Below, in pieces: positions 4,215 through 22,850 of a stretch of 64,000 nucleotides of DNA. The DNA lies in NCBI RefSeq assembly GCF_008274585.1, contig NZ_VTRT01000009.1:1-64000 (forward strand), in the 5' to 3' direction. Origin of the DNA: Pedobacter sp. BS3 (GTDB lineage Bacteria; Bacteroidota; Bacteroidia; Sphingobacteriales; Sphingobacteriaceae). Under the pieces are notes generated by a model, which saw nothing but the letters and a program-made list of their open reading frames with translations, was not told the origin of the DNA and did no database searches. A program made the position numbers and the translations under genes. Within the stretch, counting starts at the first letter, position 1. Every line of letters begins with the position of its first letter.

Positions 4215-5066
4215 TTATTTCGTTGTTTTTTCCGGCGTTAACAAGATAACATTAGCAACTTTACGCTCGCCCTGATTATCCCATTTTTTATTATCCGAAG
4301 GATGATTAACCACGCCCCTTCCTTTCACCCACATGGTTGTGGAACCGCCTCCATCCAGATTAATGGCAAACGAAGCGTGCAACCAACGTGAAAGCTTCTC
4401 AAGCTCATATAAGCTCATGCCGGCAGCATGTTCATTACGCCCATCAACCGTTATCAGTAACACCTTATTTTTAGCTAAGGCAATTGCCGTACGCGGGTTT
4501 CGGTAACGGGCAAATGCGGCCGTGTCTGTCAAAACAGCGCTATCGCGATAAATCAGTAATGGCCCGGTCAGCATCACATTTTCGGCCGGAAGATTATGCT
4601 CCCAGTTGGCAGAGCCGTCCCACTTAGCCATACTCATCTTTCCATTTGAGATCAGCAGGGCAGCCTGCTGATGCCGGGCACGTTGTCCCAAGGGGTACGG
4701 CTTATTCTCATTGATAATCTGTCCGTTTACTTTAATGAAATCGGCCGAACCGCCATTCTTCACATCAAAAAATGTTCCATTTATGGCAGCCAGGGCATTG
4801 GCCGATGCCGCAAAATCACTGGTACGTCGTAATGCTTTATGCTCAAAGCCTATTGAAAACTGCTTATTCTTATTTTTTATTTCGAGAATGCTGATGAACT
4901 GGTTACTACCAAACAGGTTATTTTCAAATTGACATTGCTTTAGTTTTACACCGTGCTTAATGCGGCTGGTGTTCCACTTTGCCTGTGTAAACGCCAATGA
5001 GTCTGTCTGTGCATAAATGCTTCCTGTAACAACAGATAATAGAAAGAATAAAAGAAGCTTCTTCAT
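4215..5066 (-). CDS. Exported phosphodiester glycosidase family protein (NAGPA-like)
   Basis: A 283-aa protein with a clear signal peptide (MKKLLLFFLLSVVTGSIYAQ). Its body is typical of the NAGPA/phosphodiester glycosidase family: AINGTFFDVKNGG near residue 95, a VDGRNEHAAGMSLYEL segment, and the hallmark INLDGGGSTTMWV near residue 240. Relatives cleave N-acetylglucosamine or related sugars from phosphodiester links in cell-surface or storage polymers. The substrate here is unknown. It is first in a two-gene unit with the e(P4)-type phosphatase, so a sequential deglycosylation and dephosphorylation of a scavenged compound is possible (inference). Confidence 0.8.
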   Translation of the reverse strand: MKKLLLFFLLSVVTGSIYAQTDSLAFTQAKWNTSRIKHGVKLKQCQFENNLFGSNQFISILEIKNKNKQFSIGFEHKALRRTSDFAASANALAAINGTFFDVKNGGSADFIKVNGQIINENKPYPLGQRARHQQAALLISNGKMSMAKWDGSANWEHNLPAENVMLTGPLLIYRDSAVLTDTAAFARYRNPRTAIALAKNKVLLITVDGRNEHAAGMSLYELEKLSRWLHASFAINLDGGGSTTMWVKGRGVVNHPSDNKKWDNQGERKVANVILLTPEKTTK

Positions 5067-5222: not shown

Positions 5223-8200
5223 ATTTCAATTCAACTATTGTGCGATTAAGAGTTCAATTCCATGATAATGATTGTTTGAGTTGTGTTAAATTTCAATTCA
5301 ACTATTGTGCGATTAAGAGGGGGGCGGTTCTGTGATAGACGGCCTGCCTATTTAATTTCAATTCAACTATTGTGCGATTAAGAGATATGCGGGAAACCGC
5401 CGAATTTCTGGATAAACACGAATTTCAATTCAACTATTGTGCGATTAAGAGATGCCTGATATACTTCAAACACATGCACATGCAGTTATTTCAATTCAAC
5501 TATTGTGCGATTAAGAGTACGCACCATTAACAACATTGCCGATGTAAACGAAAATTTCAATTCAACTATTGTGCGATTAAGAGCTGCCTGCGTACCTGCC
5601 AGCACCTCATTATTAACGTATTTCAATTCAACTATTGTGCGATTAAGAGAAAAAATGGGATTGGGGTAATGATGGAGACCCCAAATTTCAATTCAACTAT
5701 TGTGCGATTAAGAGTAAACATTTCGCTGGTTTTGTTGTACTTTTGTAGATTTCAATTCAACTATTGTGCGATTAAGAGTTACGAAGCTGTAGACAACTCT
5801 ATGACCGCCCCCAATTTCAATTCAACTATTGTGCGATTAAGAGGGCATTTGCAGCCGGGGCCAGCCCCGAAATTGTAAATTTCAATTCAACTATTGTGCG
5901 ATTAAGAGGATAACGAGAAAAAAGAAAGTTTCCGCACATCGGTATTTCAATTCAACTATTGTGCGATTAAGAGTAAATCTTTATCATCCAGTTGTAACAC
6001 GTCCTGGGCATTTCAATTCAACTATTGTGCGATTAAGAGCGGCACGATGTGCCATTTGTGGGTAAATTCATCAATTTCAATTCAACTATTGTGCGATTAA
6101 GAGGTAGGTACAGACGTGCCCTATGCGCAGATACACAAATTTCAATTCAACTATTGTGCGATTAAGAGGTGCCTTCCAAGACATCATCAACAAATCCTGG
6201 TAATATTTCAATTCAACTATTGTGCGATTAAGAGTGCCAGATGGATGGTTATGGGCGATTATAACTGTATTTCAATTCAACTATTGTGCGATTAAGAGAA
6301 ATGATGGCATCGCCAAAGTAAAAGGCGAGGTACAATTTCAATTCAACTATTGTGCGATTAAGAGTACCATAAACGCTATTAACGAATCTACAACAATTGA
6401 ATTTCAATTCAACTATTGTGCGATTAAGAGTGAGAAAGGCGGCAACTACATTGAGATTGGAAGATTATTTCAATTCAACTATTGTGCGATTAAGAGTTAA
6501 TGTAATATTAGCAGTCCCGTCAAAACTAACTCCATTTCAATTCAACTATTGTGCGATTAAGAGTACCATAAACGCTATTAACGAATCTACAACAATTGAA
6601 TTTCAATTCAACTATTGTGCGATTAAGAGTGAGAAAGGCGGCAACTACATTGAGATTGGAAGATTATTTCAATTCAACTATTGTGCGATTAAGAGTTAAT
6701 GTAATATTAGCAGTCCCGTCAAAACTAACTCCATTTCAATTCAACTATTGTGCGATTAAGAGTACCATAAACGCTATTAACGAATCTACAACAATTGAAT
6801 TTCAATTCAACTATTGTGCGATTAAGAGTGAGAAAGGCGGCAACTACATTGAGATTGGAAGATTATTTCAATTCAACTATTGTGCGATTAAGAGTTAATG
6901 TAATATTAGCAGTCCCGTCAAAACTAACTCCATTTCAATTCAACTATTGTGCGATTAAGAGCAAACTTTTACTAATTACCGCTGCATTTTTTTCACCATT
7001 TCAATTCAACTATTGTGCGATTAAGAGCGTATAGAGCGGTTAGGCGGCTTTACTTATGCTATATTTCAATTCAACTATTGTGCGATTAAGAGATTAATTC
7101 CCTGGATGGATTGGACAAAAAACTAGCATTTCAATTCAACTATTGTGCGATTAAGAGCTGTTTACTACTATTTAGCTGCATCTGTGGTCTGGTCATTTCA
7201 ATTCAACTATTGTGCGATTAAGAGCCCATCAGAACTATCTCTTGTCGAACCTATATATTCATTTCAATTCAACTATTGTGCGATTAAGAGTTTAACAACC
7301 TCTGTTCTGTCGTCGCTGTGCTTTAATTTCAATTCAACTATTGTGCGATTAAGAGTCAAAGTTGATATACCGGCCGTCAAGCTGATGCAATTTCAATTCA
7401 ACTATTGTGCGATTAAGAGTGATTAAAAAGTCAAAAGACATACGGGCAGAGCTATTTCAATTCAACTATTGTGCGATTAAGAGTTTTGATTGAGCTTAAT
7501 TATTTCCTCATCTGTCTGCATTTCAATTCAACTATTGTGCGATTAAGAGTAACCCGATAAGGCTTGTTTTACAGGAAGAATACGAATTTCAATTCAACTA
7601 TTGTGCGATTAAGAGAATTTGGTCTTGGTCAGCTTCCTGACATACCGCTTATATTTCAATTCAACTATTGTGCGATTAAGAGTGCATGAAGCAACATATA
7701 GACTGGTATAAAAACGCATTTCAATTCAACTATTGTGCGATTAAGAGATAATCACGCAGGACTTTATCATTTAACAAGTCCATTTCAATTCAACTATTGT
7801 GCGATTAAGAGATTTATGAAGAAGGCGAAGAAGGGGCACTAAGTATATTTCAATTCAACTATTGTGCGATTAAGAGCCTGATGGCTTCGCCGGATGTAAT
7901 ACATACTTGCATTTCAATTCAACTATTGTGCGATTAAGAGTAATACCAATGAAACTACATCCGAAAATACAGGAACATTTCAATTCAACTATTGTGCGAT
8001 TAAGAGTAAACCTGTGGAGGCCGCCAACATTCCTGCAAGAATTTCAATTCAACTATTGTGCGATTAAGAGGATGGAAATAAATTGAACAACTCCGTATCA
8101 AACCTATTTCAATTCAACTATTGTGCGATTAAGAGAAGCGTAAGGAAATCATACTTCTTATTGGGAAGAAAATTTCAATTCAACTATTGTGCGATTAAGA

Positions 8201-11200
8201 GCTAAAGCCCCTCAAATAAGGGGCTTTATCGTTTTCCATTTCAATTCAACTATTGTGCGATTAAGAGCAGGGGATAAAGCTTTTAATGATTTTGGTTTCT
8301 CCCATTTCAATTCAACTATTGTGCGATTAAGAGGGCTTTCTAACCTGGGTTTATAGCCGCCTTTCTCGTATTTCAATTCAACTATTGTGCGATTAAGAGG
8401 CCATGCGGAGTATGTAGAGTGGTATGTGGTAGGCTAATTTCAATTCAACTATTGTGCGATTAAGAGTCCCGATAACTTAAATTCTAATGAAACTATACAG
8501 CATTTCAATTCAACTATTGTGCGATTAAGAGAAATCAAACCATTTATCAGGGTAGTGTTTCATACCTATTTCAATTCAACTATTGTGCGATTAAGAGCCA
8601 CAGCCGGGAATATGTATTAAACGGGTGGCATAAATTTCAATTCAACTATTGTGCGATTAAGAGTCGATTCATCCCCCCGCATCTATGGATTACAAATATT
8701 TCAATTCAACTATTGTGCGATTAAGAGTAGGCAGTCTTTTTCTGTTCCACAGAATGGAATAGTATTTCAATTCAACTATTGTGCGATTAAGAGGTTTCAT
8801 ACCTTGAACGCAGTCCATAAGGTAAACCTCATTTCAATTCAACTATTGTGCGATTAAGAGGCGTTTAAGTAAAACATTCCGTGTTTTTTTATACATTTCA
8901 ATTCAACTATTGTGCGATTAAGAGTTCACCGGTCTAAAAAGGCAGATGCTGCATGCTTATTTCAATTCAACTATTGTGCGATTAAGAGCCATGCGCTTTA
9001 TAGCTATTAAGTGTTGGTAGATTATATTTCAATTCAACTATTGTGCGATTAAGAGATAACAAAGAGTGGTTTTTGACTGGCTTTAAAGCATTTCAATTCA
9101 ACTATTGTGCGATTAAGAGATTCCCCCAGCTCAACCGACTGAATCCCGGGAGCACAATTTCAATTCAACTATTGTGCGATTAAGAGTAAGTGCAAACAAG
9201 TATCAATTAAATTTTGTCGGCTTATTTCAATTCAACTATTGTGCGATTAAGAGACGCAAGCGATGGGTTGGTTTCCTGCTCCCATTTTAATTTCAATTCA
9301 ACTATTGTGCGATTAAGAGCCGTGCCACTTGGCTTTGTACTCAATTATCACATATTTCAATTCAACTATTGTGCGATTAAGAGTACAACTTGCTATTTTC
9401 GCAGAAATAAAACAGACCCATTTCAATTCAACTATTGTGCGATTAAGAGGGCGCCAACTCCACCTACACCACCGCAATCAAAGGAATTTCAATTCAACTA
9501 TTGTGCGATTAAGAGATAATCGAACAAAAAGATTTAATCACCCTATTAAAATTTCAATTCAACTATTGTGCGATTAAGAGAGCCCTGCGTTCAGTCGTTT
9601 CTTACCCAATACCTGAATTTCAATTCAACTATTGTGCGATTAAGAGTATTGAGGGTAACCTGCAGGGAAATTCCCGCATACATTTCAATTCAACTATTGT
9701 GCGATTAAGAGTAAAGTTCAGGAATGGACAACGGAAATACGAAAAGAATTTCAATTCAACTATTGTGCGATTAAGAGTCCGAAAAGGATTGTTGCTAACA
9801 TTTCAATTTTAGCATTTCAATTCAACTATTGTGCGATTAAGAGATGGTAGTGCAAGGGTATTTCAATATGCAAGAGGAAAATTTCAATTCAACTATTGTG
9901 CGATTAAGAGCCACTGCTACACCCCGCATTGCAATTAAAGGCCGATTTCAATTCAACTATTGTGCGATTAAGAGTAGAGAATGGCTGACCAGTACAAGAG
10001 CTGATAACAAATTTCAATTCAACTATTGTGCGATTAAGAGCTTCAATCGCTCCTTTATATCATCTTTATCTTCCAATTTCAATTCAACTATTGTGCGATT
10101 AAGAGATAAATACCTGTGCCAAACCTGTACGGTAGAACTCGATTTCAATTCAACTATTGTGCGATTAAGAGTACATCAGCCTGTCTAATATCCATAAGCC
10201 AGTTGAATTTCAATTCAACTATTGTGCGATTAAGAGCGTATATCGGTATGTTTGATGCTTCACGGTAAGTTATTTCAATTCAACTATTGTGCGATTAAGA
10301 GAAAACGCACTTAGGTTAACCAGAGATGTGACAAAATTTCAATTCAACTATTGTGCGATTAAGAGTATGAGGTGAAGTTATCTGCAAATCACCCTAAATA
10401 ATTTCAATTCAACTATTGTGCGATTAAGAGCTCATATCGGTTATGCGTTAATGGCGGGGAATGTTTGATTTCAATTCAACTATTGTGCGATTAAGAGAAA
10501 GCCACAAAACGCAATTAAAAACTATTTCAACAAATTTCAATTCAACTATTGTGCGATTAAGAGCCATTTACGCCAACAGACAGATAAAGTCTTTCATATT
10601 TCAATTCAACTATTGTGCGATTAAGAGTAACAACAACGATACACAGCAAGTATATAAAATAGTTAATTTCAATTCAACTATTGTGCGATTAAGAGCAAAA
10701 TGTTCAAACATTTTAGCGACTTTGTCAAAATTTCAATTCAACTATTGTGCGATTAAGAGTGGCAATCAAACATACCTGGCACGCATTGATGCGCATTTCA
10801 ATTCAACTATTGTGCGATTAAGAGCTCATTTACCTGAACCGGAAGAAAACGACTATAACTAATTTCAATTCAACTATTGTGCGATTAAGAGTATGACCGA
10901 ACATATTTGTCCTAAATGTGGTAACAAATTTCAATTCAACTATTGTGCGATTAAGAGTAAAGAGCTTTTAAAAGCTACTAAATGATAAGTCTATTTCAAT
11001 TCAACTATTGTGCGATTAAGAGACAAGGCAGATAAAAAAAGAATTGGGATTGCCATTCCCATTTCAATTCAACTATTGTGCGATTAAGAGTGATGCATTT
11101 ACGAAGTTCATCCAGCAGGCATATAAATTTCAATTCAACTATTGTGCGATTAAGAGATGTATATGGTATAATCATAATCAGGCAGATATTTAATTTCAAT

Positions 11201-13196
11201 TCAACTATTGTGCGATTAAGAGGGCTTTTAGTCTTGGTTTCGCTATGCAGGTGGACGAATTTCAATTCAACTATTGTGCGATTAAGAGTCCGACTGCTGT
11301 TTCTTTCTTAATCGGTTTTTGTTATTTCAATTCAACTATTGTGCGATTAAGAGTAAACGCCGCCAATCTTGCGACCCTATATCCCTAATTTCAATTCAAC
11401 TATTGTGCGATTAAGAGCGCCTTTGCGAAGGTGTGGCACGCTTTCAGAAACTACACATTTCAATTCAACTATTGTGCGATTAAGAGATGCAGACCAATGC
11501 CGAAAAGATATTATTAACGCTAATTTCAATTCAACTATTGTGCGATTAAGAGCATCCTTAGGCAATTCATTAATTACCTGCCAGTTGCATTTCAATTCAA
11601 CTATTGTGCGATTAAGAGAAACCCGACAATGCTATGCGGCTCGATGTTCAATTATTTCAATTCAACTATTGTGCGATTAAGAGTCTTGCATACTTTCTTT
11701 TTGCTGCCATATTATTTATTTCAATTCAACTATTGTGCGATTAAGAGAGAAACAGGGGGAAAGGCTAACGCTGCCCTCAAAATATTTCAATTCAACTATT
11801 GTGCGATTAAGAGTCAATTGCTTAACGGGTTTGAAAAAACGCTATACAATTTCAATTCAACTATTGTGCGATTAAGAGTTCTTGTTATCTTGCAGACCTA
11901 AGTCACGGGCTAATTTCAATTCAACTATTGTGCGATTAAGAGATTCAACAGAACATCAGATAGTTGTCTATCCTGAAGAATTTCAATTCAACTATTGTGC
12001 GATTAAGAGCCGGGATAGTCCATTTGTTCAAGCATGCCCGATTTATATTTCAATTCAACTATTGTGCGATTAAGAGAAAAATGTTTTTTTAAGCCCTACC
12101 GTCATCATCTCAATTTCAATTCAACTATTGTGCGATTAAGAGACGCATGTTGTTACAAGTTGCCTGTCTGCAACGCCCATTTCAATTCAACTATTGTGCG
12201 ATTAAGAGAAAACATCTACAGGCAATGATGTACTCCAATTGTACAAATTTCAATTCAACTATTGTGCGATTAAGAGCATACATCAATTTATCTTTATTGG
12301 CTTCAAACTCAATTTCAATTCAACTATTGTGCGATTAAGAGAGACAATGTGTATATTTACATCATGAAACAATTAAATTTCAATTCAACTATTGTGCGAT
12401 TAAGAGTCCTGCGCCGGGGTATTAGACCAAATCCGGTACAAAATTTCAATTCAACTATTGTGCGATTAAGAGTTCAAAACCCTCCGATTTAACCGGTAAC
12501 ACCTCCGAATTTCAATTCAACTATTGTGCGATTAAGAGGACTATTTCACGGGGATATAGTACCGATTTAAGCTCATTTCAATTCAACTATTGTGCGATTA
12601 AGAGTGAAATTCTTTTTAAGATACACAGCAACACCAAAATTTCAATTCAACTATTGTGCGATTAAGAGAACAACGGCTATTTACACGCATATAAGCCATA
12701 ACCATTTCAATTCAACTATTGTGCGATTAAGAGCCGTATTGAACTTTTAGTACATACCCATCTATAGTCATTTCAATTCAACTATTGTGCGATTAAGAGC
12801 CGTAAGGGATTTGCACTTAAAACTTAACATGTCCTAATTTCAATTCAACTATTGTGCGATTAAGAGATAGAAAAACAAAATTACAAATGTGCTTTAACTG
12901 GATTTCAATTCAACTATTGTGCGATTAAGAGCAGACAGGGTTTGGAAATATACCAATCAGTTTAAAAAATTTCAATTCAACTATTGTGCGATTAAGAGAA
13001 CAAAAGCCAATTAAGAAAGAAACAGCAGTCGGAATATTTCAATTCAACTATTGTGCGATTAAGAGTGGTCTGCTGAAAAAAACTCGATATAACTGCCATT
13101 ATTTCAATTCAACTATTGTGCGATTAAGAGAGTGTACCGTATTAACGGTAATAAGCTATCTGACAAATTTCAATTCAACTATTGTGCGATTAAGAG
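5223..13196 (-). CRISPR. CRISPR array, type I-B, 122 repeats and 121 spacers
   Basis: I counted 122 copies of a 30-bp unit, first at 5223-5252 and last at 13167-13196. On the plus strand it begins ATTTCAATTC and ends GCGATTAAGAG; all copies that I read look identical. Spacers are mostly 34-38 nt. Read on the minus strand the repeat starts CTCTTAATCG and ends GAATTGAAAT. The last eight bases, ATTGAAAT, match the usual type I-B crRNA 5' handle, so crRNAs are made from the minus strand. The leader lies between cas2 and the 13196 end. Three spacers occur three times each (6335-6931), leaving about 115 distinct spacers. Apparent ORFs across the array are translations of the repeat and are not genes. 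Confidence 0.98.
6335..6931 (-). repeat. 199-bp three-spacer block repeated three times in the array
   Basis: Repeats starting at 6335, 6534 and 6733 each open an identical 199-bp block of three repeats and three spacers (36, 36 and 37 nt). The three blocks are in perfect tandem. This is a segmental duplication inside the array, probably by recombination or replication slippage between repeats, rather than repeated acquisition. Confidence 0.97.
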
Positions 13197-13403: not shown

Positions 13404-13667
13404 CTAAATAAAAGTATCCAGTTCATTTTTCTCTTTACCTACAAGCTGTTTTTCCAACCATTTCTCATTCCTGTTCTTAAAAACAATAATACTGTCACAT
13501 GCTTCATCCATAACCTCTCTGGCCCGATGTAATAGTTCTTTTAACTTTACTTCGGTTATTTCTCCTTCAAACACACTGTTCTGTATCCAGTTAAGGTATT
13601 GCCTACACAATTTAAGCATTTTTCCCACTCTTTTTTCGCCTATATCATATACCACAATTACATACAT
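13404..13667 (-). CDS. cas2: CRISPR-associated endonuclease Cas2
   Basis: An 87-aa ferredoxin-like protein of normal Cas2 length. It starts MYVIVVYDIGEKR, with the conserved metal-site Asp8 after the first strand. The SVFEGEIT segment is typical of Cas2 proteins in I-B loci. With Cas1 it forms the integrase complex that inserts new spacers at the leader-repeat junction. It starts 1 nt after the cas1 stop and is the last gene of the cas operon. A terminator and the array leader follow. Confidence 0.95.
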   Translation of the reverse strand: MYVIVVYDIGEKRVGKMLKLCRQYLNWIQNSVFEGEITEVKLKELLHRAREVMDEACDSIIVFKNRNEKWLEKQLVGKEKNELDTFI

Positions 13668-13668
13668 A

Positions 13669-14673
13669 TTACCACCAGCTTTTAAAAGGTTTATACTCTT
13701 CCATACCCAACAAATGTTTGGTAAGCTTATAGCATTCCAATTTCACCAGGTGTTTGTAACTTACACTTCTGTTCAGCGAACGATGCTTAATGGTTTCATT
13801 GAGCCGTTCTTCAAAGGCCCTTACAAATGTTTTTCGGGCAGTATCTTTCAATACTACACTATTAACCTGTACGTCAAAATCTTTAGCCTGAATTTCCTTT
13901 TTATTTAATACTTTAAAAATAACCCTGTCCACTAAGATCGGTTTAAAAACCTCTGCAAGATCTAATGCCAATGAATATCTACGGTATCCGGGATCATGCA
14001 AAAAACTGATAGTGGGATTTAATTGTGTATGATAAATTTGACCCAGACATACTGTATAACACATCATATTTCCGAAAGACACCAAAGCATTAACTTCGTT
14101 TCTAGGAGGCCGTTTACTGCGACCATTCATAGCAAAATCGTTCAAAATAATATCAAAGGCATCATAATATGTCTGGCGGATATTGCCTTCGAAGCCCATT
14201 AGCATATCAATATCGGTAGTATTGCTAAGCAAAGTGCTATATCGTTCAATAGTGGCAATGATATCGCCTAATTCCTTACCCCGGGAATGATAATACCGTA
14301 AATTTTTAAGTATGTTGAATACAGCTCCCTGAACAAACTTTTGTGCTATGATCAAACGCTTTGTTTTACTGCTGTGGTATTTGGTTTGTGCTATTTGCAT
14401 TTTGCCCGCTAATAAATAATCCTTAGGCATAAAGCTACCAGTATAATGCTCATAATAATCGAAGAAGTGAACTGCTATCTGCTCTTTTCCCAAGAAATTA
14501 TACAATGCACTGTTAGCATCTAATGCTCCAAAACAATACAGGTCGCTTACACCTTCTACCGGGATATATTTGGGCTGCCCTTCCGTACCGTTTTCATCCA
14601 CTGGTGTGAACTTGAGGGTATTGTCCTTGCGGCTCATGCGGCCAGGATTAAACAGGTAGTAGGTTTTTTTCAT
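13669..14673 (-). CDS. cas1: CRISPR-associated endonuclease Cas1 (type I-B)
   Basis: A 334-aa Cas1, the metal-dependent integrase of spacer acquisition. The catalytic triad is visible as Glu in PPRNEVNALVSFGN, His in FLHDPGYRRYSLALDLAE, and Asp a little further on in the same segment. The N-terminal beta-domain starts MKKTYYLFNPGRMSRKDN, as in Cas1 of I-B systems. The gene overlaps the cas4 stop by 1 nt, so the two are translationally coupled, which fits the known Cas4-Cas1 cooperation in PAM-compatible spacer processing. Confidence 0.97.
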   Translation of the reverse strand: MKKTYYLFNPGRMSRKDNTLKFTPVDENGTEGQPKYIPVEGVSDLYCFGALDANSALYNFLGKEQIAVHFFDYYEHYTGSFMPKDYLLAGKMQIAQTKYHSSKTKRLIIAQKFVQGAVFNILKNLRYYHSRGKELGDIIATIERYSTLLSNTTDIDMLMGFEGNIRQTYYDAFDIILNDFAMNGRSKRPPRNEVNALVSFGNMMCYTVCLGQIYHTQLNPTISFLHDPGYRRYSLALDLAEVFKPILVDRVIFKVLNKKEIQAKDFDVQVNSVVLKDTARKTFVRAFEERLNETIKHRSLNRSVSYKHLVKLECYKLTKHLLGMEEYKPFKSWW

Positions 14674-15200
14674 TATTCATTGATGTAACAGAGTTCATAA
14701 TAGGAGCAGCTTTTGCAGACCTTTGCATTGATAACCGGAGGACATTCTTCCGATTCTTTTAGCTGTGCTATAGATTGTATCGTTTTTTCCAAATGCTCAA
14801 TATCCTCCGCAGAAAGTCTTAACTGATCGGTTTGCCTCAATAACGGATATTCCAATATAGCGCTTGCTTCTTCAATTCCATTCAGCTTTAGCAGCCATAA
14901 ATAAAATTTTACCTGCCATTCGTGCGCCTTTTCTACTTTATCGCTGCGCTTGGTTTCATGAATTATTTTTTGCCCCGCATCATAAAAGTCTATTTTACCA
15001 AACAGACTAATATTATTGTAAGCTGCCTCTATGTTCAACTCAGTATGTTTTTCATTACGCTGCGGGTAGCTGGTCTCGTGCAACAGCTTGCCATCGTATA
15101 CCGTATCGCTGGTATGCTCCATGTTGATGCCGTTAGCATGTAGCCAGCATTCCCGTTTGCAAACATGATAAAGATTGATGAGTGTGGCGTTGATGGTCAT
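14673..15200 (-). CDS. cas4: CRISPR-associated exonuclease Cas4
   Basis: A 175-aa RecB-family nuclease. It has the N-terminal cysteine (CKRECWLHANG) and the C-terminal CKSCSYYELC cluster, which together give the four cysteines of the Fe-S cluster. The nuclease core is GKIDFYDAGQKIIHETKRSD, supplying the Asp and the ExK-type motif, then HEWQVKFYLWLL. Cas4 trims prespacers and helps choose PAM-flanked ends. Its ATG overlaps the cas3 stop by 4 nt (ATGA-type overlap). Confidence 0.95.
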   Translation of the reverse strand: MTINATLINLYHVCKRECWLHANGINMEHTSDTVYDGKLLHETSYPQRNEKHTELNIEAAYNNISLFGKIDFYDAGQKIIHETKRSDKVEKAHEWQVKFYLWLLKLNGIEEASAILEYPLLRQTDQLRLSAEDIEHLEKTIQSIAQLKESEECPPVINAKVCKSCSYYELCYINE

Positions 15201-17986
15201 AAGAATTGGGTTTCATTACTATTAAAATCATTATCCCGCATCCCTGATTCTATGTCGTAGAATTCTCTCCAATGTTCAATATACTTATATCCATATTCAG
15301 TTTTATCTTCATCGGAATAATGCGTAATCTGCTTTTCAATTTTATCACTTGCAAACAAAGAAAAAACATATTTGGACATTATTCCCTGCAATATCTTTTC
15401 TTCAGTCTTTTGCTTAATAAACTCTTGCTTATTGTGAATAAGGTTTAAATAAACATCAAACACTTTTTTACCCTCAATCTCATTTTCATCATTTGCAAAT
15501 ACCTGATATAATTTCAAAAAATCCAGTTCAGATTGTGAGAATACAGAGTCTTTCTGTCCTTCGAAAATTCCGTCAACTTGTATTGGGACTGATAAGGGTA
15601 CAAAGCAAGAAATATTATTTTGTTCAATCAGTTTAAAGTCTTCGTGTACAGATTTGAACTTTAGCGACTTGATTTTGTTCTCATAATCTCTAAAGTTTTC
15701 AACCATTGTTTTATCATTCCATTCATTTCTGTTATTCAAAACAATGTCATACAGCTTATCAAAATCTTTATTGTTTAAAATGTCAATGTATTGCTCATGT
15801 TTAATATGCTTTCCTGTCAATTCTAAACGTTTATCTTTTCCATAGATAATCGCTTCTTTATTATAGTTGAAGAGGAATAAAACACAATCCCGTTTATTGA
15901 CATTTCGGTTAATTCTGCCTGCCAGTTGTTCGTCGCTATCTATCAGCGAACGGTCCTTAAAGCCCAAATCCATATCTATATCCACGCCGGCTTCTACCAC
16001 TTGTGTAGTAATCAATAAGACTTTCTTTTTTCTATTGTTTTTGTTTTTGAGAAAGTTGATGATGTACTTTCTTCTATGCGGAAGAATAGTCCCTGACAAC
16101 ACAAATATCTCATCAAAAAAATCGATTCGTTTGATGAGATTATAAAATTCAGATGCCGTTTTTTTAAAGATAAATTCAATAATTGTGTAAACGCTACCTA
16201 AAGGCTTCGCGTTTCCAAAATCCTTTTCTGAATAGGCTTTAGACTCTGCTAACAGTCTTTCTGCAATTTCACTAAGCTCTAAATCTGTCCTGTCAAAATA
16301 ATCAAAATTAAAAGTAACTCTCCCCGAGAAATTAGGATTAGTGAAATACTTTTTCCTGGCTTCAGGCAACAGATAAACGAAGTCCTGAGCTTGCTCTTTT
16401 ATTACATTCAGCTTATCTAATTTTGGTAATGTCGCCGACATCAGTATAAACTTGATATTGAATTTGTCAGCGTATTGTTTTATGAAGTAAATGACCTTAT
16501 CCCAATGTTGGGGATTATAGGATTGCAATTCGTCTATCACCACAATAGAGTTAGCCAAACGATGTAGTAAATAGTTCGCTTCCTTTTCATTTGTCTTTAG
16601 AATATCAAAAAAGCGAATGTGAGATAAAAAGGTAAACGGATAATTGACAAAGAGATGATTGATATAATTAAGCTTTTCATTTCCGTAATTATCGTCATCT
16701 TCACTGTTTACTTTCATTCCTGCATTGGAATGCAATTCCACCATTTCATTTTCCTGCAAGCCTAAAGTTTCTTTAAGCGATTTATAGGTTTGGGTAATGA
16801 GCGTTGTAAATGGAAATACATAAAATACCTTGTTGTACTTTCCCTGATGCATTTTCAGTAGCTCTATTACTGCCAATGCAGACAGATTTGTTTTTCCGCC
16901 TCCGGTTGGTGCTTCTATATAAAATAAGTTGCTATCGGCATTTGAGCGAATACTACGAATAACTTCTATCGCCATTTCTGTTCGTAAAATATTCAGATTA
17001 TCTCCCGTAGCAATCTGCGGATTTTGAAACTCGTAGCTTTCAGTTTTTCCAAAAACAGCTTTGTTGTAATTCTTTTTCCCCTCTGCTTCATTTAACCAAT
17101 CCGCATTCGTAACAAATTGATATATCTCCTCAATTCTTTCCTTTGAAAGTGTGCCGAAGTCAGTAATTTTTGCTGAGTACTCCTTATCGCTATTCATATA
17201 CTCATTTGTTGCCAAATAATCGGAAGCCGTAAGTAGCGAAAAGTTCAAACGGCATAGTGCATAGAGCGAGAATGAGTTGTCTCTTTTTAGCTTTTGCTGA
17301 TTCTCCAACCAATCATTTTTACCAATCATTTGAATGATATTCTGGTTTATGTCAAAGCCAAAAGCGTTTAAATATTTGGATAAAAACAATTTAACATCAT
17401 CGAAAATAAATTTGGCTTTTAATTCTGCAAATCCCGTAGTATAAATGCTATCATCATCAAACTGCCGACTATGATGTTTAAAAATAGAATAGGATAAATA
17501 AATGCAGGCAGTGATTAAAGCTGGGTCAAATTTATGTTCAAATGCAATCTCATTCAGATGTTTGCTTAGATAGATGTATGCACTAAGAGCTGAATGTGTA
17601 GAACCAATAGGACTATCAGAATCAATCAACTTCCTATGTAGCTCATTCCGCATCTTATCAGACTGAAATCGTTCATTTATCTTGCCATAATCGTGGAAAA
17701 CAATAGTATTTACAAACAACTTTTTCAAATAGTTGGCGGTTTTGGGGTTGCCGCTCGTATTAATGCTTTGTATTAGTTTATCAATAACAGGTTCAAGCCT
17801 ATGTTCATTTACCAATTGGACAAAATATTGGTTTACCAATGTGATATGTTCTTCCAGTGTTTCATTTGGAATATCAACATTCAGCTTTGGTAAATGAGCA
17901 AAATAACTTCCGGCATTGCTTAAAAACGTATGCAATGCAGGGAGTCCGTTTAAGATTTCAGCAACCGATTTAAAACAGCTGGACAT
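15197..17986 (-). CDS. cas3: CRISPR-associated helicase-nuclease Cas3 (HD fused)
   Basis: A 929-aa Cas3. The N-terminal HD nuclease domain carries FHDYGK (His98-Asp99), preceded by conserved His residues and followed by KHHSRQF near residue 171. The SF2 helicase core has Walker A EAPTGGGKT (359-367), a DEAD-type VIDELQ box, SATLPK (motif III) and QLAGRINRNVNKR (motif VI). It is recruited by Cascade to nick and degrade the displaced target strand. All key motifs are intact. Its start overlaps the cas5 stop by 17 nt. Confidence 0.96.
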   Translation of the reverse strand: MSSCFKSVAEILNGLPALHTFLSNAGSYFAHLPKLNVDIPNETLEEHITLVNQYFVQLVNEHRLEPVIDKLIQSINTSGNPKTANYLKKLFVNTIVFHDYGKINERFQSDKMRNELHRKLIDSDSPIGSTHSALSAYIYLSKHLNEIAFEHKFDPALITACIYLSYSIFKHHSRQFDDDSIYTTGFAELKAKFIFDDVKLFLSKYLNAFGFDINQNIIQMIGKNDWLENQQKLKRDNSFSLYALCRLNFSLLTASDYLATNEYMNSDKEYSAKITDFGTLSKERIEEIYQFVTNADWLNEAEGKKNYNKAVFGKTESYEFQNPQIATGDNLNILRTEMAIEVIRSIRSNADSNLFYIEAPTGGGKTNLSALAVIELLKMHQGKYNKVFYVFPFTTLITQTYKSLKETLGLQENEMVELHSNAGMKVNSEDDDNYGNEKLNYINHLFVNYPFTFLSHIRFFDILKTNEKEANYLLHRLANSIVVIDELQSYNPQHWDKVIYFIKQYADKFNIKFILMSATLPKLDKLNVIKEQAQDFVYLLPEARKKYFTNPNFSGRVTFNFDYFDRTDLELSEIAERLLAESKAYSEKDFGNAKPLGSVYTIIEFIFKKTASEFYNLIKRIDFFDEIFVLSGTILPHRRKYIINFLKNKNNRKKKVLLITTQVVEAGVDIDMDLGFKDRSLIDSDEQLAGRINRNVNKRDCVLFLFNYNKEAIIYGKDKRLELTGKHIKHEQYIDILNNKDFDKLYDIVLNNRNEWNDKTMVENFRDYENKIKSLKFKSVHEDFKLIEQNNISCFVPLSVPIQVDGIFEGQKDSVFSQSELDFLKLYQVFANDENEIEGKKVFDVYLNLIHNKQEFIKQKTEEKILQGIMSKYVFSLFASDKIEKQITHYSDEDKTEYGYKYIEHWREFYDIESGMRDNDFNSNETQFL

Positions 17987-18740
17987 AGGCCTCTAATTCT
18001 TCAACAAATACCAAATTTTCAATAAGGTGTGCATTTTTTATCTGATAATTTGAGAATGCAAATTCTGTAATGTCATATTGCATCAACTCCAGGTCAAAAC
18101 CTTTGGGTAATCTTTCGAAATACAGAAAATTCATTTCTTCAAAGTCGATATTCAGCAAGTCCGGGAACGGAGCTTCTGTATTCCCTTTTAGAACAATTGC
18201 CTTTTGGAAAACAGATTTAATTTTTACACTTTCCTCCTTTTTAATTTCCTTGTTTGAAAAACTATATTCAGTAAATGTTGAGGGATTCCACCAAGCCGAG
18301 AATTCATTCTTTCCCAGATAAGGAATATATACGGATTCTCCTTTTTTTAAAGAATCGTAAAGTGCAGAATACAATTCATTATCGCTATCCAATAAAAGAT
18401 ATATCCTGTAAACCGGATTTACCAAAGTAAGCTCTTCGGTCAGGAAATTTGTGCCTTTATTCGCATAGCCAACCGTATTTGTATATTTGATATTGGTCTT
18501 CGTAAAATTTCCTTTATCGTGCTCCAACGGCTCTACGCCAATCTTTAAATCTTTGAGCTTCTCGTAATATTCCGGCAGTTTGCCTTTTTCCTGATAACCA
18601 CTCAATCCAAGTACCGCCCCTAGTATTCCTAACAAAGCAGGTTTGTGAATGATATTGTACGACAGGTTTATCGTATTGTTGGTCTCGGGCTTTCTGAAAA
18701 AAGCAAAATCAGCCTGTAAGTCAAATGATATTAATTTCAT
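17970..18740 (-). CDS. cas5: Cascade subunit Cas5 (type I-B, Cas5h)
   Basis: A 256-aa RAMP-fold protein starting MKLISFDLQADFAFFRKPETN. The ALLGILGAVLGLSGYQ motif near residue 35 is typical of Cas5 from I-B (Hmari/Tneap-like) systems. Cas5 caps the 5' handle of the crRNA at the foot of Cascade and contacts Cas8b. It lies between cas7 and cas3, with a 12-nt gap to cas7 and an overlap with cas3, as expected for a single operon. Confidence 0.93.
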   Translation of the reverse strand: MKLISFDLQADFAFFRKPETNNTINLSYNIIHKPALLGILGAVLGLSGYQEKGKLPEYYEKLKDLKIGVEPLEHDKGNFTKTNIKYTNTVGYANKGTNFLTEELTLVNPVYRIYLLLDSDNELYSALYDSLKKGESVYIPYLGKNEFSAWWNPSTFTEYSFSNKEIKKEESVKIKSVFQKAIVLKGNTEAPFPDLLNIDFEEMNFLYFERLPKGFDLELMQYDITEFAFSNYQIKNAHLIENLVFVEELEAYVQLF

Positions 18741-18752
18741 TAGCTGATATGT

Positions 18753-19664
18753 TTATAGTTCAGAGAATACGGCTCCGGCAGGCTCATTCAATACTTTTGT
18801 GTTGGATTTATTGTAGTAAATTTCTATTTTCTCAATTTCACTTTTTATATGTTCCTCTGATAGCAAAGCACTTGCCTTTGAAAAGTCAATTTCCTTTTCT
18901 TCATTAATGTCTATCAGGCTTACAAATGAGGGTAATACTACTTTCGATTCGGGTTTTAGCTGTATCCACAGCAACAATTCGTTTTCTGTTCCGGCTTTAG
19001 CTGCCGAATCGTAATAAGTAGCCCCTTTTCTCAACCCTTCTTTGAGCTTTGAAATATCACTATCTGTTAATCCTTCTCCTTTTACACGGGTTACATCGTC
19101 TTCAATGTTTTTGGGGTTTACAGAAAAATGATGAACATAATGCCCTTCCTGCAAACGGGATTGAGACCCTAATGTAGTCATTGTGCTTTCAGCACTTGCT
19201 TCGTTCGAGTTACGAAATGGCGACATTATTTGTTCTGAATAGATAACATTCTCAGCAAATTTGTTTAATCCGTGTGTAATCTGGCACGTACCGTGAATAG
19301 AAATATTTGTCTTGCCTGCATACGTACCCCCGAATAATTTGACATCCAGACATTTCAAAATATTACCTAAAACTTCCAATCTGAGTTTTGTTTTGTCTTT
19401 CTCTTTAGAATCGCCAAAATGAAGATTATAGGTTTCATCCAATGTACGTGGGGACATCTCCTCACTCAAAGATTTAAAGTAAAATACCTTTTCTCCCAAT
19501 GCATCTTTCCAGTAATTCCTGATGGAATATTTCAAGGCTTTATCGGTAGCATAAACGGTTCCATTCGGCAGTTTTCGGGGTTGTCCAGAAAAATCGGCGT
19601 TATAGTTTGAATTGATTGATTTGATGATGGCTGCACCGTAAACTCTGTTATTAAATGTTGTCAT
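18753..19664 (-). CDS. cas7: Cascade backbone subunit Cas7 (Csh2)
   Basis: A 303-aa Cas7/Csh2. It opens with the conserved NNRVYGAAIIKSINSNYNADF segment and includes a GTCQITHGLNKFAENV core and the ESTMTTLGSQSRLQEGHYVHHF stretch seen in I-B Cas7. Several copies line the spacer part of the crRNA to form the Cascade backbone. It starts 6 nt after the cas8b stop. Length is normal and I see no disruption. Confidence 0.95.
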   Translation of the reverse strand: MTTFNNRVYGAAIIKSINSNYNADFSGQPRKLPNGTVYATDKALKYSIRNYWKDALGEKVFYFKSLSEEMSPRTLDETYNLHFGDSKEKDKTKLRLEVLGNILKCLDVKLFGGTYAGKTNISIHGTCQITHGLNKFAENVIYSEQIMSPFRNSNEASAESTMTTLGSQSRLQEGHYVHHFSVNPKNIEDDVTRVKGEGLTDSDISKLKEGLRKGATYYDSAAKAGTENELLLWIQLKPESKVVLPSFVSLIDINEEKEIDFSKASALLSEEHIKSEIEKIEIYYNKSNTKVLNEPAGAVFSEL

Positions 19665-19670
19665 ATTATT

Positions 19671-20051
19671 TTATTTTGGATTGTTTGAACTGAATAATTG
19701 ATTTTTTGCAAATACACCTGACAGTATTTGAGGTAATAAATGTTTTAAGTTGACATCGGTTTCATAGCTTAAAACAAACGCAGCTACTTTCTCAAAATTC
19801 TTAGAGAAATTCTCATGCTTATACCTTCCAAAATCGTTTGTAATTGCTTTTTTGAACTCTGCACATTTTGATTGCTGCAAATAAGGCTCTAACAGATTGT
19901 AACTATTGTCTGCCGATTTGCTTTTACTTAAAATGTATTCGATAACCTGACCGGCTGCAAATGCAAACTTTTCGTCTGTAATATCAGTTAATTCTTCGCC
20001 GGAAATAATGGCTGCGACGAAATCCTGATATTCTTTTAACTTGTTCACCAT
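19671..20051 (-). CDS. Possible internal Cas11b-like small subunit (in-frame start inside cas8b)
   Basis: In several type I-B systems the small subunit Cas11b is made from an internal in-frame start in cas8b. Here an in-frame ATG (codon 522; 20051-20049) opens a 126-aa all-helical C-terminal product beginning MVNKLKEYQ. It is preceded by a purine/A-rich stretch (AAACAAAAAATAAAT), which is a plausible start region in Bacteroidota. This is inference from family knowledge; another internal Met (MVFNS) is also possible. Confidence 0.3.
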   Translation of the reverse strand: MVNKLKEYQDFVAAIISGEELTDITDEKFAFAAGQVIEYILSKSKSADNSYNLLEPYLQQSKCAEFKKAITNDFGRYKHENFSKNFEKVAAFVLSYETDVNLKHLLPQILSGVFAKNQLFSSNNPK

Positions 20052-21614
20052 ATTTATTTTTTGTTTAGGATTAAAATATTCAAATAAACTGTACCAAATG
20101 TTCAATTTTTCTTTTATACCGTATTCGTTCCCATTTTTAATGTCATCTGAAATGCTGTTAAACACCATTTCATAAAAAACATTTCCGTCAATAGTATTTC
20201 GCTGTGATTTATAGACAAAGTCATATACCGCTTTCCGGTATTTGGAAAAGGAGCCAAATGTTCTATCCAGCTTGGCATAGTCTTCTTTATTAAGGTCTCC
20301 GAAATAATCTACACGATGATATTTATTTTGAATTAAAGGCTTCAAAACCTGTTGCTCAAAATCAAAAATAGTTTTGATGAGTAGATAATGTTTATCTGCC
20401 TTTCCACCTTTTTCTTTTATTTCAAAAAGGTTTTGAATGATTAAATCTTTGATTTTATATTCAAATTTTGCCACGTAATCAAAATCTCTAAATACAATTC
20501 CATCCATTGTATTTTGCCAGAAGAGGAGATAATAATTTGAAATATCCTCCTCATTTGTTTCTATCAGTTTTTGAATAATTTCTTTGTAACCGAATTTAAA
20601 TCCGCTTTCTCTGAAAATACTAATTACCTTACTTTGCAGCAGTTCCTCTTTGTAAATAAAAATTGGCAGCGGATTGGGCAAGGTTTTGTTGGGAAACATA
20701 TTTTTCAAATCGTTCAGCAACTTCGCATCTGTATTTGAGATTCTGCCTGAAATATCAAAACTTGCTGTTTGGTGCATCAGGAATGGCATATTGCTGTTGA
20801 AGCCATTCATAAAGTTATTCGTTCCATAGATCAGCCCCTGTTCATCCGGAGCCGTGTTATATTTATCCGTATTGAAAAGTTTATCATCCAAATATCTTTT
20901 GTGTACTTCTTTGTATTGTTTAAGCGGTATATCTAAATAGAAAATGATGTAACTGCTGTCCTCTAAAGGTTTCACTTTTAGCAACTGTTGGTCAATCTCT
21001 GCAATAGCATTTTTAATAGCCTCCTTTTCTGATTTGTCTTTACTTTCTTTGAATTGCACTTTTAATAACTCACTTTTTTCTTCCAGCTTCTGATACTTAT
21101 CGGCATTCTCCCTTTCAATTTTTTCAATTAGTTTAGAGAGTTCATTGTGCGTAAAAAAGTTTCTAAAAACAATATACTTTTCTTTCTCTGCCTCATCCTC
21201 AAATAGTGCAAATGCTTTATTAAAATAACCTTCAAAACGTTCATAAATCTGCTTTTTCTTTTCTGCCTGATTGCTTTTATATTTTGCACCGCCTTCTAAA
21301 TGCTCTCTTTTGAAGGCCACAGCAAACGGGGAGCAAGTGTGGATAGCTTTAGTGGGTAAATCAAAACATTTGTTTGTATCAATACACCAGGCATTTTGAT
21401 GCAGCAATTTGCAAGTGTTCAAAAAATCTGATACTTTTTCTTTTTGTTTTTTAGAGAATTGCTCAAATTGAAAGCTCTCTTTATCAATAGAAACTTCTCC
21501 ATTTTCATCTTTTTTCAATTGAAGCAATATATGCAGACCTTCTTTAGGTAAAGAGCCCAAATTTTTAAATTCTTCTTCCAGATTTTCCGTAAAATTTATA
21601 AGTTCTTTTATCAT
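19671..21614 (-). CDS. cas8b: Cascade large subunit Cas8b (Csh1)
   Basis: A 647-aa large subunit of the I-B interference complex, identified by its position upstream of csh2, its length, and Csh1-type features: an N-terminal region rich in Lys/Glu, WCIDTNKCFDLPTKAIHTCSPFAVAFKREH near residue 85, and a helical C-terminal bundle. Cas8b recognises the PAM and recruits Cas3. Only 2 nt separate its ATG from the stop of the 57-aa ORF, so translation is probably coupled. The operon promoter lies just upstream at 21807-21814. The C-terminal 126 residues resemble the small-subunit-like domain. Confidence 0.9.
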   Translation of the reverse strand: MIKELINFTENLEEEFKNLGSLPKEGLHILLQLKKDENGEVSIDKESFQFEQFSKKQKEKVSDFLNTCKLLHQNAWCIDTNKCFDLPTKAIHTCSPFAVAFKREHLEGGAKYKSNQAEKKKQIYERFEGYFNKAFALFEDEAEKEKYIVFRNFFTHNELSKLIEKIERENADKYQKLEEKSELLKVQFKESKDKSEKEAIKNAIAEIDQQLLKVKPLEDSSYIIFYLDIPLKQYKEVHKRYLDDKLFNTDKYNTAPDEQGLIYGTNNFMNGFNSNMPFLMHQTASFDISGRISNTDAKLLNDLKNMFPNKTLPNPLPIFIYKEELLQSKVISIFRESGFKFGYKEIIQKLIETNEEDISNYYLLFWQNTMDGIVFRDFDYVAKFEYKIKDLIIQNLFEIKEKGGKADKHYLLIKTIFDFEQQVLKPLIQNKYHRVDYFGDLNKEDYAKLDRTFGSFSKYRKAVYDFVYKSQRNTIDGNVFYEMVFNSISDDIKNGNEYGIKEKLNIWYSLFEYFNPKQKINMVNKLKEYQDFVAAIISGEELTDITDEKFAFAAGQVIEYILSKSKSADNSYNLLEPYLQQSKCAEFKKAITNDFGRYKHENFSKNFEKVAAFVLSYETDVNLKHLLPQILSGVFAKNQLFSSNNPK

Positions 21615-21616
21615 TT

Positions 21617-21790
21617 TTAAAATAAATTTTCTAAATAATTATATATTTCAATATCCGAAAAATCATCCTCGCAAAACCATTCAATAAAAACAAAATGCTC
21701 ATTCATTCTTTCCAAATCAAGGACATAAGAAATAAAACTTTCCATATCTATAAGACTTCCGTCACTTCCTATGTAATACATACCTTCCAT
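21617..21790 (-). CDS. 57-aa acidic small ORF directly upstream of cas8b
   Basis: An unlisted short ORF in the cas operon, starting MEGMYYIGSDGSLIDMES and ending NYLENLF. I count 14 Asp/Glu against a single Arg and no Lys, so it is extremely acidic, and it is rich in aromatic residues (FVFIEWFCEDDF). The stop is 2 nt before the cas8b ATG. The start lies about 17 nt downstream of the -7 box at 21807-21814, so this would be the first cistron of the operon. I do not recognise a family. Possible roles are a regulatory upstream ORF coupled to cas8b, a small Cascade-binding protein or a nucleic-acid mimic; all are inference. Its codon use and base composition resemble cas8b. Confidence 0.55.
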   Translation of the reverse strand: MEGMYYIGSDGSLIDMESFISYVLDLERMNEHFVFIEWFCEDDFSDIEIYNYLENLF

Positions 21791-21806
21791 ATACCAAATA
21801 TTTTGG

Positions 21807-21814
21807 CAAAGGTA
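21807..21814 (-). promoter_or_regulatory. -7 box of the cas8b-cas2 operon
   Basis: On the minus strand TACCTTTG matches TAnnTTTG. It lies 16 nt before the ATG of the 57-aa ORF, predicting a very short 5' UTR. The -33 region coincides with the sequence matched by the crRNA-like guide (21827 onward) and has no good TTG, so the promoter may be weak or tightly regulated. Confidence 0.6.
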
Positions 21815-21823
21815 TAATTTTTA

Positions 21824-21862
21824 TCATAGTTAATCTAATTGTTAATATTAAATTCTATTTTT
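21824..21862 (+). promoter_or_regulatory. Candidate Cascade target site over the cas operon -33 region
   Basis: From 21827 the plus strand reads TAGTTAATCTAATTGTT. The guide after the degenerate repeat at 21935 reads TAGTTTAACTAATTGTT. They agree at 15 of 17 positions, with mismatches at 6 and 8; the next is at 18. Every sixth base of a type I guide is flipped out and need not pair. The three bases before the site are TCA, which is a PAM-like trinucleotide for some I-B systems. Similarity fades after position 17, as expected for a guide that binds without triggering cleavage. Confidence 0.5.
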
Positions 21863-21876
21863 CCCATTTTTGTTAC

Positions 21877-21884
21877 TATTTTTG
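21877..21884 (+). promoter_or_regulatory. -7 box for the candidate crRNA-like RNA
   Basis: TATTTTTG matches TAnnTTTG on the plus strand. It would start RNA near 21890, just before the degenerate repeat at 21905. The upstream -33 element is unclear. It diverges from the cas8b-operon promoter 63 bp away. Confidence 0.45.
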
Positions 21885-21887
21885 TGT

Positions 21888-21970
21888 GTCAGTATTTCTC
21901 AAGAGTTTCAAATCGTACTAAATAGAATTGAAATTAGTTTAACTAATTGTTTGAAATACTGACATTTTTA
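21888..21970 (+). ncRNA. Candidate crRNA-like autoregulatory RNA (CreR-type) in the cas6-cas8b gap
   Basis: At 21905-21934 a 30-nt degenerate CRISPR repeat begins GTTTCAAATCGTAC. Its last 10 bases (GAATTGAAAT) are identical to the array repeat, so Cas6 cleavage would give the same ATTGAAAT handle (21927-21934). The following 36 nt (21935-21970) act as a pseudo-spacer whose first 17 nt match the cas operon promoter at 21827. An 11-bp perfect inverted repeat, GTCAGTATTTC (21888-21898) and GAAATACTGAC (21953-21963), brackets the RNA and is followed by ATTTTTA, which may end it. Position between cas6 and cas8 is where CreTA was described in haloarchaeal I-B loci. Expected effect: Cascade loaded with this RNA represses cas8b-cas2 and releases it when Cascade or crRNA balance changes. 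A protein-operator explanation for the similar AT-rich boxes remains possible. Confidence 0.5.
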
Positions 21971-22750
21971 CTTTAATAATTCCACAAACCCCATCCCCTG
22001 CGAATTATACACTCCACACCCCGCATTCATTAAAATTTCCACAAATCTTTTCTCTCCGGTTACCTTCAATCCAAAATTCATCCATCCTCTTATCTTCGTT
22101 TCCTGCGGCGTGCCTGCTTTAATGGCAATTAACCGCGATTTAAAGGGTTGCTTCAGCGGTGTTACTTCCATCATCAGCAAGGCGGCCGCCGCTGTTGCTT
22201 CATCATAGCAGGTAGCTATTTTGTTCCGCCAATTATATATAAGGCTGTCTGCAAAGCGGGCATCATCCGGTGATAAAAAAACATAATTCCCTTTTTCATT
22301 CTGCAGGCCGGCTACCACAGGAGAGAGTGGCTTCAACTGAATGTTGATCACCACATTGTCTTTATATCCCTGCAAAGGATCGGGCAGGCTTTCTACCGAC
22401 CTTACAGAGAATGTGGCTTTCGATCTTTTATCTGCAATATCTATATGCTCGCTTTGGAATAATCCTTTCACAAAATTTTCCGCTGCGGGTGGCAAGTGAA
22501 AAGCCACCTGGAAACTCAGCTCGTCACCCAGCAGTTGTAGTCGGTCGCCCGCTATTTTAAAAGGGCAGCTAATCTGAGAAAAAGTAAACAGCTTAAAGCC
22601 TTTGCCATAGCCACTTGTATGGAGAAAACCGGCATAAGCCGAATCTCCTTTAGTGATGATCCGATAAATGGCCGAGCTAAGGATATACTGATAATTAATT
22701 GGGATAACAACCCCAGGACGGAGCGCAGAGAGCACAATTTTAAAGCGCAT
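21968..22750 (-). CDS. cas6: CRISPR repeat endoribonuclease Cas6
   Basis: A 260-aa RAMP protein. It starts MRFKIVLSALRPGVVIPINYQY and contains the SSAIYRII segment. It ends with the glycine-rich loop GVYNSQGMGFVELL that is diagnostic of Cas6. Cas6 cuts the pre-crRNA inside each repeat, leaving the 8-nt ATTGAAAT handle. It is separated from cas8b by the regulatory gap and has its own good promoter (22821-22850), so it can be expressed independently of the Cascade operon. This would matter for any crRNA-dependent autoregulation, because Cas6 stays available to mature the guide. Confidence 0.93.
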   Translation of the reverse strand: MRFKIVLSALRPGVVIPINYQYILSSAIYRIITKGDSAYAGFLHTSGYGKGFKLFTFSQISCPFKIAGDRLQLLGDELSFQVAFHLPPAAENFVKGLFQSEHIDIADKRSKATFSVRSVESLPDPLQGYKDNVVINIQLKPLSPVVAGLQNEKGNYVFLSPDDARFADSLIYNWRNKIATCYDEATAAAALLMMEVTPLKQPFKSRLIAIKAGTPQETKIRGWMNFGLKVTGEKRFVEILMNAGCGVYNSQGMGFVELLK

Positions 22751-22820: not shown

Positions 22821-22850
22821 CAAATATAAAAAATACTTTCGAAAAGGCAA
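22821..22850 (-). promoter_or_regulatory. cas6 promoter within a 13-bp inverted repeat
   Basis: On the minus strand a TTG (22848-22850), a 19-nt spacer and TATATTTG (22821-22828) fit the Bacteroidota consensus closely. TATAAAAAATACT (22825-22837) and AGTATTTTTTATA (22859-22871) form a perfect inverted repeat that spans the promoter, so it could be an operator. Predicted start is about 65 nt before the cas6 ATG. Confidence 0.65.

Follow-up and report, generated by a model that had tools for sequence, protein, structure and literature searches.

A probable CreR-type guide gene in the cas6-cas8b gap of a Bacteroidota type I-B CRISPR-Cas locus, matched to the promoter of its own cas operon

The stretch of DNA analysed, hereafter the window, comprised positions 1-64,000 of contig NZ_VTRT01000009.1 of Pedobacter sp. 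BS3 (GCF_008274585.1), forward strand. It carries a Bacteroidota type I-B locus with the cas genes on the minus strand. Of these, cas6 (21968..22750) was identified with NCBIfam and PADLOC, and cas8b (19671..21614) with PADLOC (Cas8b, E 8e-103). The remaining operon (13404..19664), assigned from NCBIfam and the ORF list, consists of cas7 (18753-19664), cas5 (17970-18740), cas3 (15197-17986), cas4 (14673-15200), cas1 (13669-14673) and a cas2-sized ORF (13404-13667). Directly ahead of cas8b lies an acidic ORF of 57 aa (21617..21790, minus strand), and the gap between cas6 and cas8b holds the guide gene described below. The CRISPR array (5223..13196) has 122 identical repeats, its crRNAs are read from the minus strand, and its spacers have a modal length of 36 nt (47 of 121). 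No spacer of this array had a TCN-flanked near match inside the window.

On the plus strand of the gap, a degenerate CRISPR repeat (psi-repeat), GTTTCAAATCGTACTAAATAGAATTGAAAT (21905..21934), ends in the same 10 nt as the array repeat, CTCTTAATCGCACAATAGTTGAATTGAAAT. The original prediction had noted this identity, handle included, and all of its coordinates and letters proved correct when rechecked on the sequence. Scored with a matrix built from 15 Bacteroidota I-B repeats, the psi-repeat reached 21.8 bits, compared to 9.9 bits for the best other non-array match in 15.5 kb of the locus. The shared bases include the predicted 5' handle that Cas6 would leave, ATTGAAAT (21927..21934), which is identical to the array handle and is 8 nt long, as is the handle of I-B CreA (PMC8501985). 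A solitary degenerate repeat adjoining cas genes and keeping the Cas6 handle is one of the features by which CreR genes are recognised. The guide, comprising the seed and following bases, is TAGTTTAACTAATTGTT (21935..21951); the triplet before the guide gene itself is AAT rather than the PAM. It had also been pointed out that the pseudo-spacer, if counted to the cas6 stop, is 36 nt and equals the modal spacer. The modal length was borne out; however, there is no processing site at the cas6 stop, and this equality was dropped as evidence and regarded as coincidental. Relics of repeats are often found next to cas genes, and the psi-repeat could in principle be a fossil array repeat without function, its match arising by chance or duplication. 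The array repeats are all identical, so a degenerate copy is no recent escape from the array.

The guide matches the protospacer strand TAGTTAATCTAATTGTT (21827..21843, plus strand) at 15 of 17 positions, with mismatches at positions 6 and 8 and the next at 18; past position 17, agreement falls to 8 of 19 bases. The target is preceded by TCA (21824..21826). The 15/17 match, its mismatches and the TCA were as first described. AT-rich sequence raises the rate of chance matches, which would favour the fossil explanation. In the shuffling test that had been proposed, using Markov shuffles of the gap, a match of at least 15/17 on either strand occurred by chance with P ~4e-4 to 6e-4, and such a match with TCA was seen in 0 of 5,000 shuffles. 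When mismatches at positions 6 and 12 were disregarded, the cas promoter was the only place in the 4.8-Mb genome where the PAM was followed by a match with no more than one mismatch; no other target of this kind was found. A partial guide match, behind a PAM, to the promoter of the organism's own cas operon is likewise characteristic of CreR. An Rfam search of 21600-22050 matched no family.

Relatives of Cas8b were collected from genome contigs (fourteen) and, in larger number, from whole-genome searches; plasmids and viral contigs yielded no close Cas8b. Seven further I-B loci each have their own degenerate repeat, their own guide and their own TCA-flanked target in a cas promoter. Together with the window, the guide-bearing loci (L012, L016, L019, L068, L069, L070 and L071) number eight, from four orders. 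The original prediction had proposed that guide and target be compared in homologous loci, and their joint conservation held in all eight, with both sequences changing. Three close relatives share the cas6-cas8 gap, namely L012 (Dysgonomonadaceae), L016 (Chitinophaga solisilvae) and L019 (Myroides sp. WP-1). Their psi-repeats are antisense and end in GAATTGAAAT or GAATTGAAAA, followed by the guide, which matches a TCA-flanked site in the cas promoter partially (15/17, 15/17 and 14/17, respectively). L069, L070 and L071 are diverged Chitinophaga loci with this same layout and, by eye, a second repeat-like stretch behind the guide. L068 has no gap; a two-repeat version of the guide lies upstream of cas6, and the matching site is just before cas6.

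About two thirds of the related loci yielded no guide, so the guide is dispensable, and the scattered occurrence of the arrangement on the Cas8b tree indicates repeated loss or gain. Two other features of these loci were recorded. At ~910-945 of L069, and at the matching place on the reverse strand of L070, another solitary repeat-like stretch, AATCG[AC]ACCACCAAGGTATTACA, conserved between the two, lies in sense orientation upstream of cas8. In L015 (Phocaeicola abscessus), an unrelated gene that by eye resembles plasmid pRiA4b ORF-3 (~4330-4985) lies directly upstream of cas8b.

The TCA triplet flanks the target in 8/8 guide-bearing loci. In the array of the related Phocaeicola abscessus system (L080), whose Cas8b is 65% identical, spacers matched Bacteroides phages, and the protospacers were flanked by TCC (36/36 match) and TCA (match with mismatches); a third, weak phage match was not at the spacer start. 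No spacer of the window array matched the phage collection, and the arrays of L063, L081, L083 and L084 gave nothing usable for a PAM against phages. Based on two protospacers of one relative, TCA is a plausible PAM of this I-B group.

The Bacteroidota -7 consensus is TAnnTTTG. Between 21600 and 21860, the sole -7 box of this type in the cas direction is TACCTTTG (21807..21814, minus strand), and the PAM edge lies 9 nt from it. The target lies in the -33 region of the predicted cas8b-operon promoter, as first described. The corresponding distances upstream of a -7-like box were 11 nt in L016, 20 nt in L019, 10 nt in L012, and 11 nt in both L069 and L070, and are hence 9-11 nt in 5/6 loci, the boxes being motif matches and some of them loose; L071 had no -7-like box. 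A separate -7 box, TATATTTG (22821-22828, motif match), belongs to cas6, and the enzyme expected to process the guide is therefore outside the control of the guided promoter.

A further -7 box, TATTTTTG (21877..21884, plus strand, motif match), serves the guide gene, with a predicted start near 21890. The predicted RNA is closed by an 11-bp terminal stem, of which the 5' arm is GTCAGTATTTC (21888..21898) and the 3' arm GAAATACTGAC (21953..21963), followed by ATTTTTA. This stem is kept in L016 and, through compensatory changes, in L012. L019 has a strong terminator hairpin behind its guide, and the H. hispanica form of creA is one repeat plus a terminator (PMC8501985). Compared with shuffles, fold stability was mild in the window (z -1.6) and more pronounced in L016 (-3.4), L012 (-5.0) and L019 (-4.4). 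Paired ends, a fold and the antisense course of the predicted RNA towards the end of cas6 would also suit an ordinary small antisense RNA that works on mRNA. However, the target occupies the -33 region; being upstream of the predicted start of transcription, it is not part of the mRNA, and this speaks against a simple antisense mechanism. The PAM, the handle and the mismatch pattern at positions 6 and 12 would also be left unexplained, and such an RNA is considered very improbable.

The pairing between guides and targets was assessed over the first 16 positions of the eight loci. True pairs matched at 112/128 positions, a total reached by 1/40,320 permuted pairings, namely the true one. Between L069 and L070, cas8 is 91% identical and cas6, in the part compared, 88%; guide and target have nevertheless both been replaced, and each pair still matches. 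A scan of 21 sequences with the true handle and TCA recovered seven pairs, compared to none with 63 decoy PAM triplets in the same sequences and none in 3,517 positions with shuffled decoy handles. Chance or duplication as the origin of the match was rejected on the permutation, decoy-PAM and decoy-handle controls. Covariation and the replacement of guide and target as a pair also contradict the fossil-repeat explanation, which is left with hardly any credibility.

Mismatches were concentrated at two positions. Within positions 1-14, 9/12 fell at 6 or 12 (p 4e-6); since the scan disregards these positions and so favours mismatches there, L068, which was found by the scan only, was removed, leaving 7/10 (p 1e-4). 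In CreA, for which repression by a partial match is established, positions 6 and 12 are likewise free of pairing (PMC8501985). The seed pairing of CreTA, at positions 1-5 and 7-11, is complete in L016, L019, L068, L069 and L071, and a single seed mismatch is present in the window (position 8), L012 (8) and L070 (9). This mismatch weighs against repression in the window, as repression by CreA was lost with any seed mismatch other than at positions 6 and 12, although only ~11 nt pair in that case (PMC8501985).

The targeted promoter had been described as that of the cas8b operon. The operon does hold cas8b; its first gene, however, is the conserved 57-aa ORF, which had been missed. The encoded protein has 14 acidic residues and one Lys/Arg. 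Homologues of 54-60 aa occupy the same place in L016 (4837-5001; 58% identity), L012 (4822-5004; 42%) and L019 (4808-4987; 32%), and between the window and L016 third codon positions vary the most, so that the protein is probably under selection. It matched nothing in NCBIfam, Pfam or PADLOC, nor any sequence, fold or toxin family. In 287 Bacteroidia genomes there were weak matches only, none near cas6 or cas8. A structure model from the single sequence was poor; a model from four sequences was confident (pLDDT 85), and matched no solved or viral structure.

The position of this ORF, first behind the targeted promoter, raises the alternative that the guide serves mainly to silence it. Following the logic of CreTA or CrePA, the 57-aa protein would be a toxin, a dormancy switch or a Cascade modulator held silent while Cascade works, with control of cas as a by-product. 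The homologues in L012, L016 and L019 co-occur with a guide, sister loci lacking the cas6-cas8 gap have neither the ORF nor a guide, and in G086 (L007) the ORF is broken (no start) and no guide was detected. Together with the probable selection on the protein and the position of H. hispanica creTA in the same gap (PMC8501985), these points favour the alternative. On the other hand, an ORF of the acidic family lies behind the guided promoter in four loci and none is intact in L068, L069 or L071: L069 has no ORF, L070 has an unrelated 43-aa ORF, L071 has a frameshifted form of the latter, and in L068 the guided site is directly before cas6. Since guides are retained even in loci with a broken or absent ORF, what the loci share as the object of control is the cas operon. 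In addition, the ORF stop and the cas8b start are 2 nt apart with no second promoter motif, so cas8b would be repressed along with the ORF, and the protein has neither a toxin-family match, a fold match nor the KilA-N domain of CrePA. Silencing of the ORF as the main role is judged unlikely.

Two further observations concern the small ORFs. In L017 the ORF of the acidic family, at a contig edge, is apparently frameshifted. The 43-aa ORF of L070 (reverse strand; MKKYERLINKPRQ..CEICNNRHFNKP) contains cysteine and lies behind the guided promoter, with a counterpart at ~832-960 of L071.

Very probably, then, judging from sequence and from analogy with known guides, the locus holds a CreR-type guide gene that lets Cascade block the cas8b promoter, with cas6 left on a separate promoter. 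As reconstructed from this anatomy and from work on CreR and CreA (PMC8501985, PMC12737573, PMC13131331), a plus-strand RNA would be transcribed from ~21890 by a promoter of its own that points away from the cas promoter, and Cas6, expressed separately, would cut the degenerate repeat to leave the ATTGAAAT handle. The guide RNA would then load into Cascade as crRNAs do and direct it to TCA and 21827-21843. With 15/17 PAM-proximal positions matching and the rest not, the R-loop would be too partial to license Cas3, and the site would be bound rather than cleaved. Cascade would stay on the -33 region and block the operon from the small ORF through cas8b, cas7, cas5, cas3, cas4 and cas1 to cas2, thereby limiting its own synthesis. 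Repression would ease when array crRNAs or anti-CRISPRs pull Cascade away, so that the promoter could sense both; as the array has 122 repeats, strong competition for Cascade is expected.

The primary CreR study is reportedly that of Liu et al. 2023 (Cell Host Microbe 31:1481), which may include Bacteroidota hosts. In the descriptions given in PMC13131331 and PMC12737573, CreR (Cas-regulating RNAs) are known for types I-B, I-E and V-A, which makes the proposed comparison with CreA/CreR guides apt. As described there, CreR is a crRNA-like RNA gene with a solitary degenerate repeat beside cas and partial complementarity to a cas promoter, as in the window, and is generally uncoupled from a toxin gene. 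The present gene differs from those descriptions in four ways: its host belongs to the Bacteroidota, it is divergent from the target promoter, its single repeat comes with ends that pair, and the unit that would be repressed includes the conserved 57-aa ORF.

With CreTA of Haloarcula hispanica and H. hubeiense it shares a psi-repeat plus guide, a PAM-flanked seed match and free positions 6 and 12 (PMC8501985). H. hispanica creA also lies between cas6 and cas8, in accordance with the original prediction, in a one-repeat form ending in a terminator (PMC8501985). The H. hubeiense system has an RNA toxin, CreT, that shares an operon with creA, a match of ~11 nt and PAM TTC (PMC8501985), whereas the present guides are divergent and match at 14-16/17 positions behind PAM TCA. 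Furthermore, the CreTA promoter drives a small RNA toxin (a mini-ORF with rare codons), whereas here 57 codons, conserved as protein, run into cas8b. In CrePA, a KilA-N toxin is repressed by CreA (PMC12737573); a protein gene would similarly sit under a Cascade-guided promoter here, but it has no KilA-N or other toxin domain and forms one unit with cas8b. CRISPRCas_133, a palindromic candidate RNA located at the end of cas6 in Bacteroidetes I-B systems and reported without function (PMC9067536), agrees in phylum, subtype, place and palindromic form when compared by description, and may be the same element.

The principle is that of CreR, already known for I-B; compared to the descriptions in PMC13131331 and PMC12737573, what looks new is the phylum, the divergent layout of a one-repeat gene whose ends pair, and the presence of a small conserved protein gene among those to be repressed. 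The 57-aa protein may be a guarded effector, with an additional toxin role possible. More tentatively, guide gene and protein might form a two-part module in which a new Cascade-guarded effector (a toxin, dormancy switch or Cascade modulator) would be set free along with newly made Cascade subunits once anti-CRISPRs or an excess of crRNA had pulled Cascade from the promoter.

For this group of bacteria, the natural variation points to Cascade-guided promoter silencing under lasting selection, guide and target being replaced together even at 91% cas8 identity. The principle would extend over four orders of Bacteroidota, and the PAM of this I-B group may be TCN. How much pairing a self target tolerates can be read from the loci, which form a natural series of partial guides, and the small protein family controlled by the same switch is now open to direct testing.
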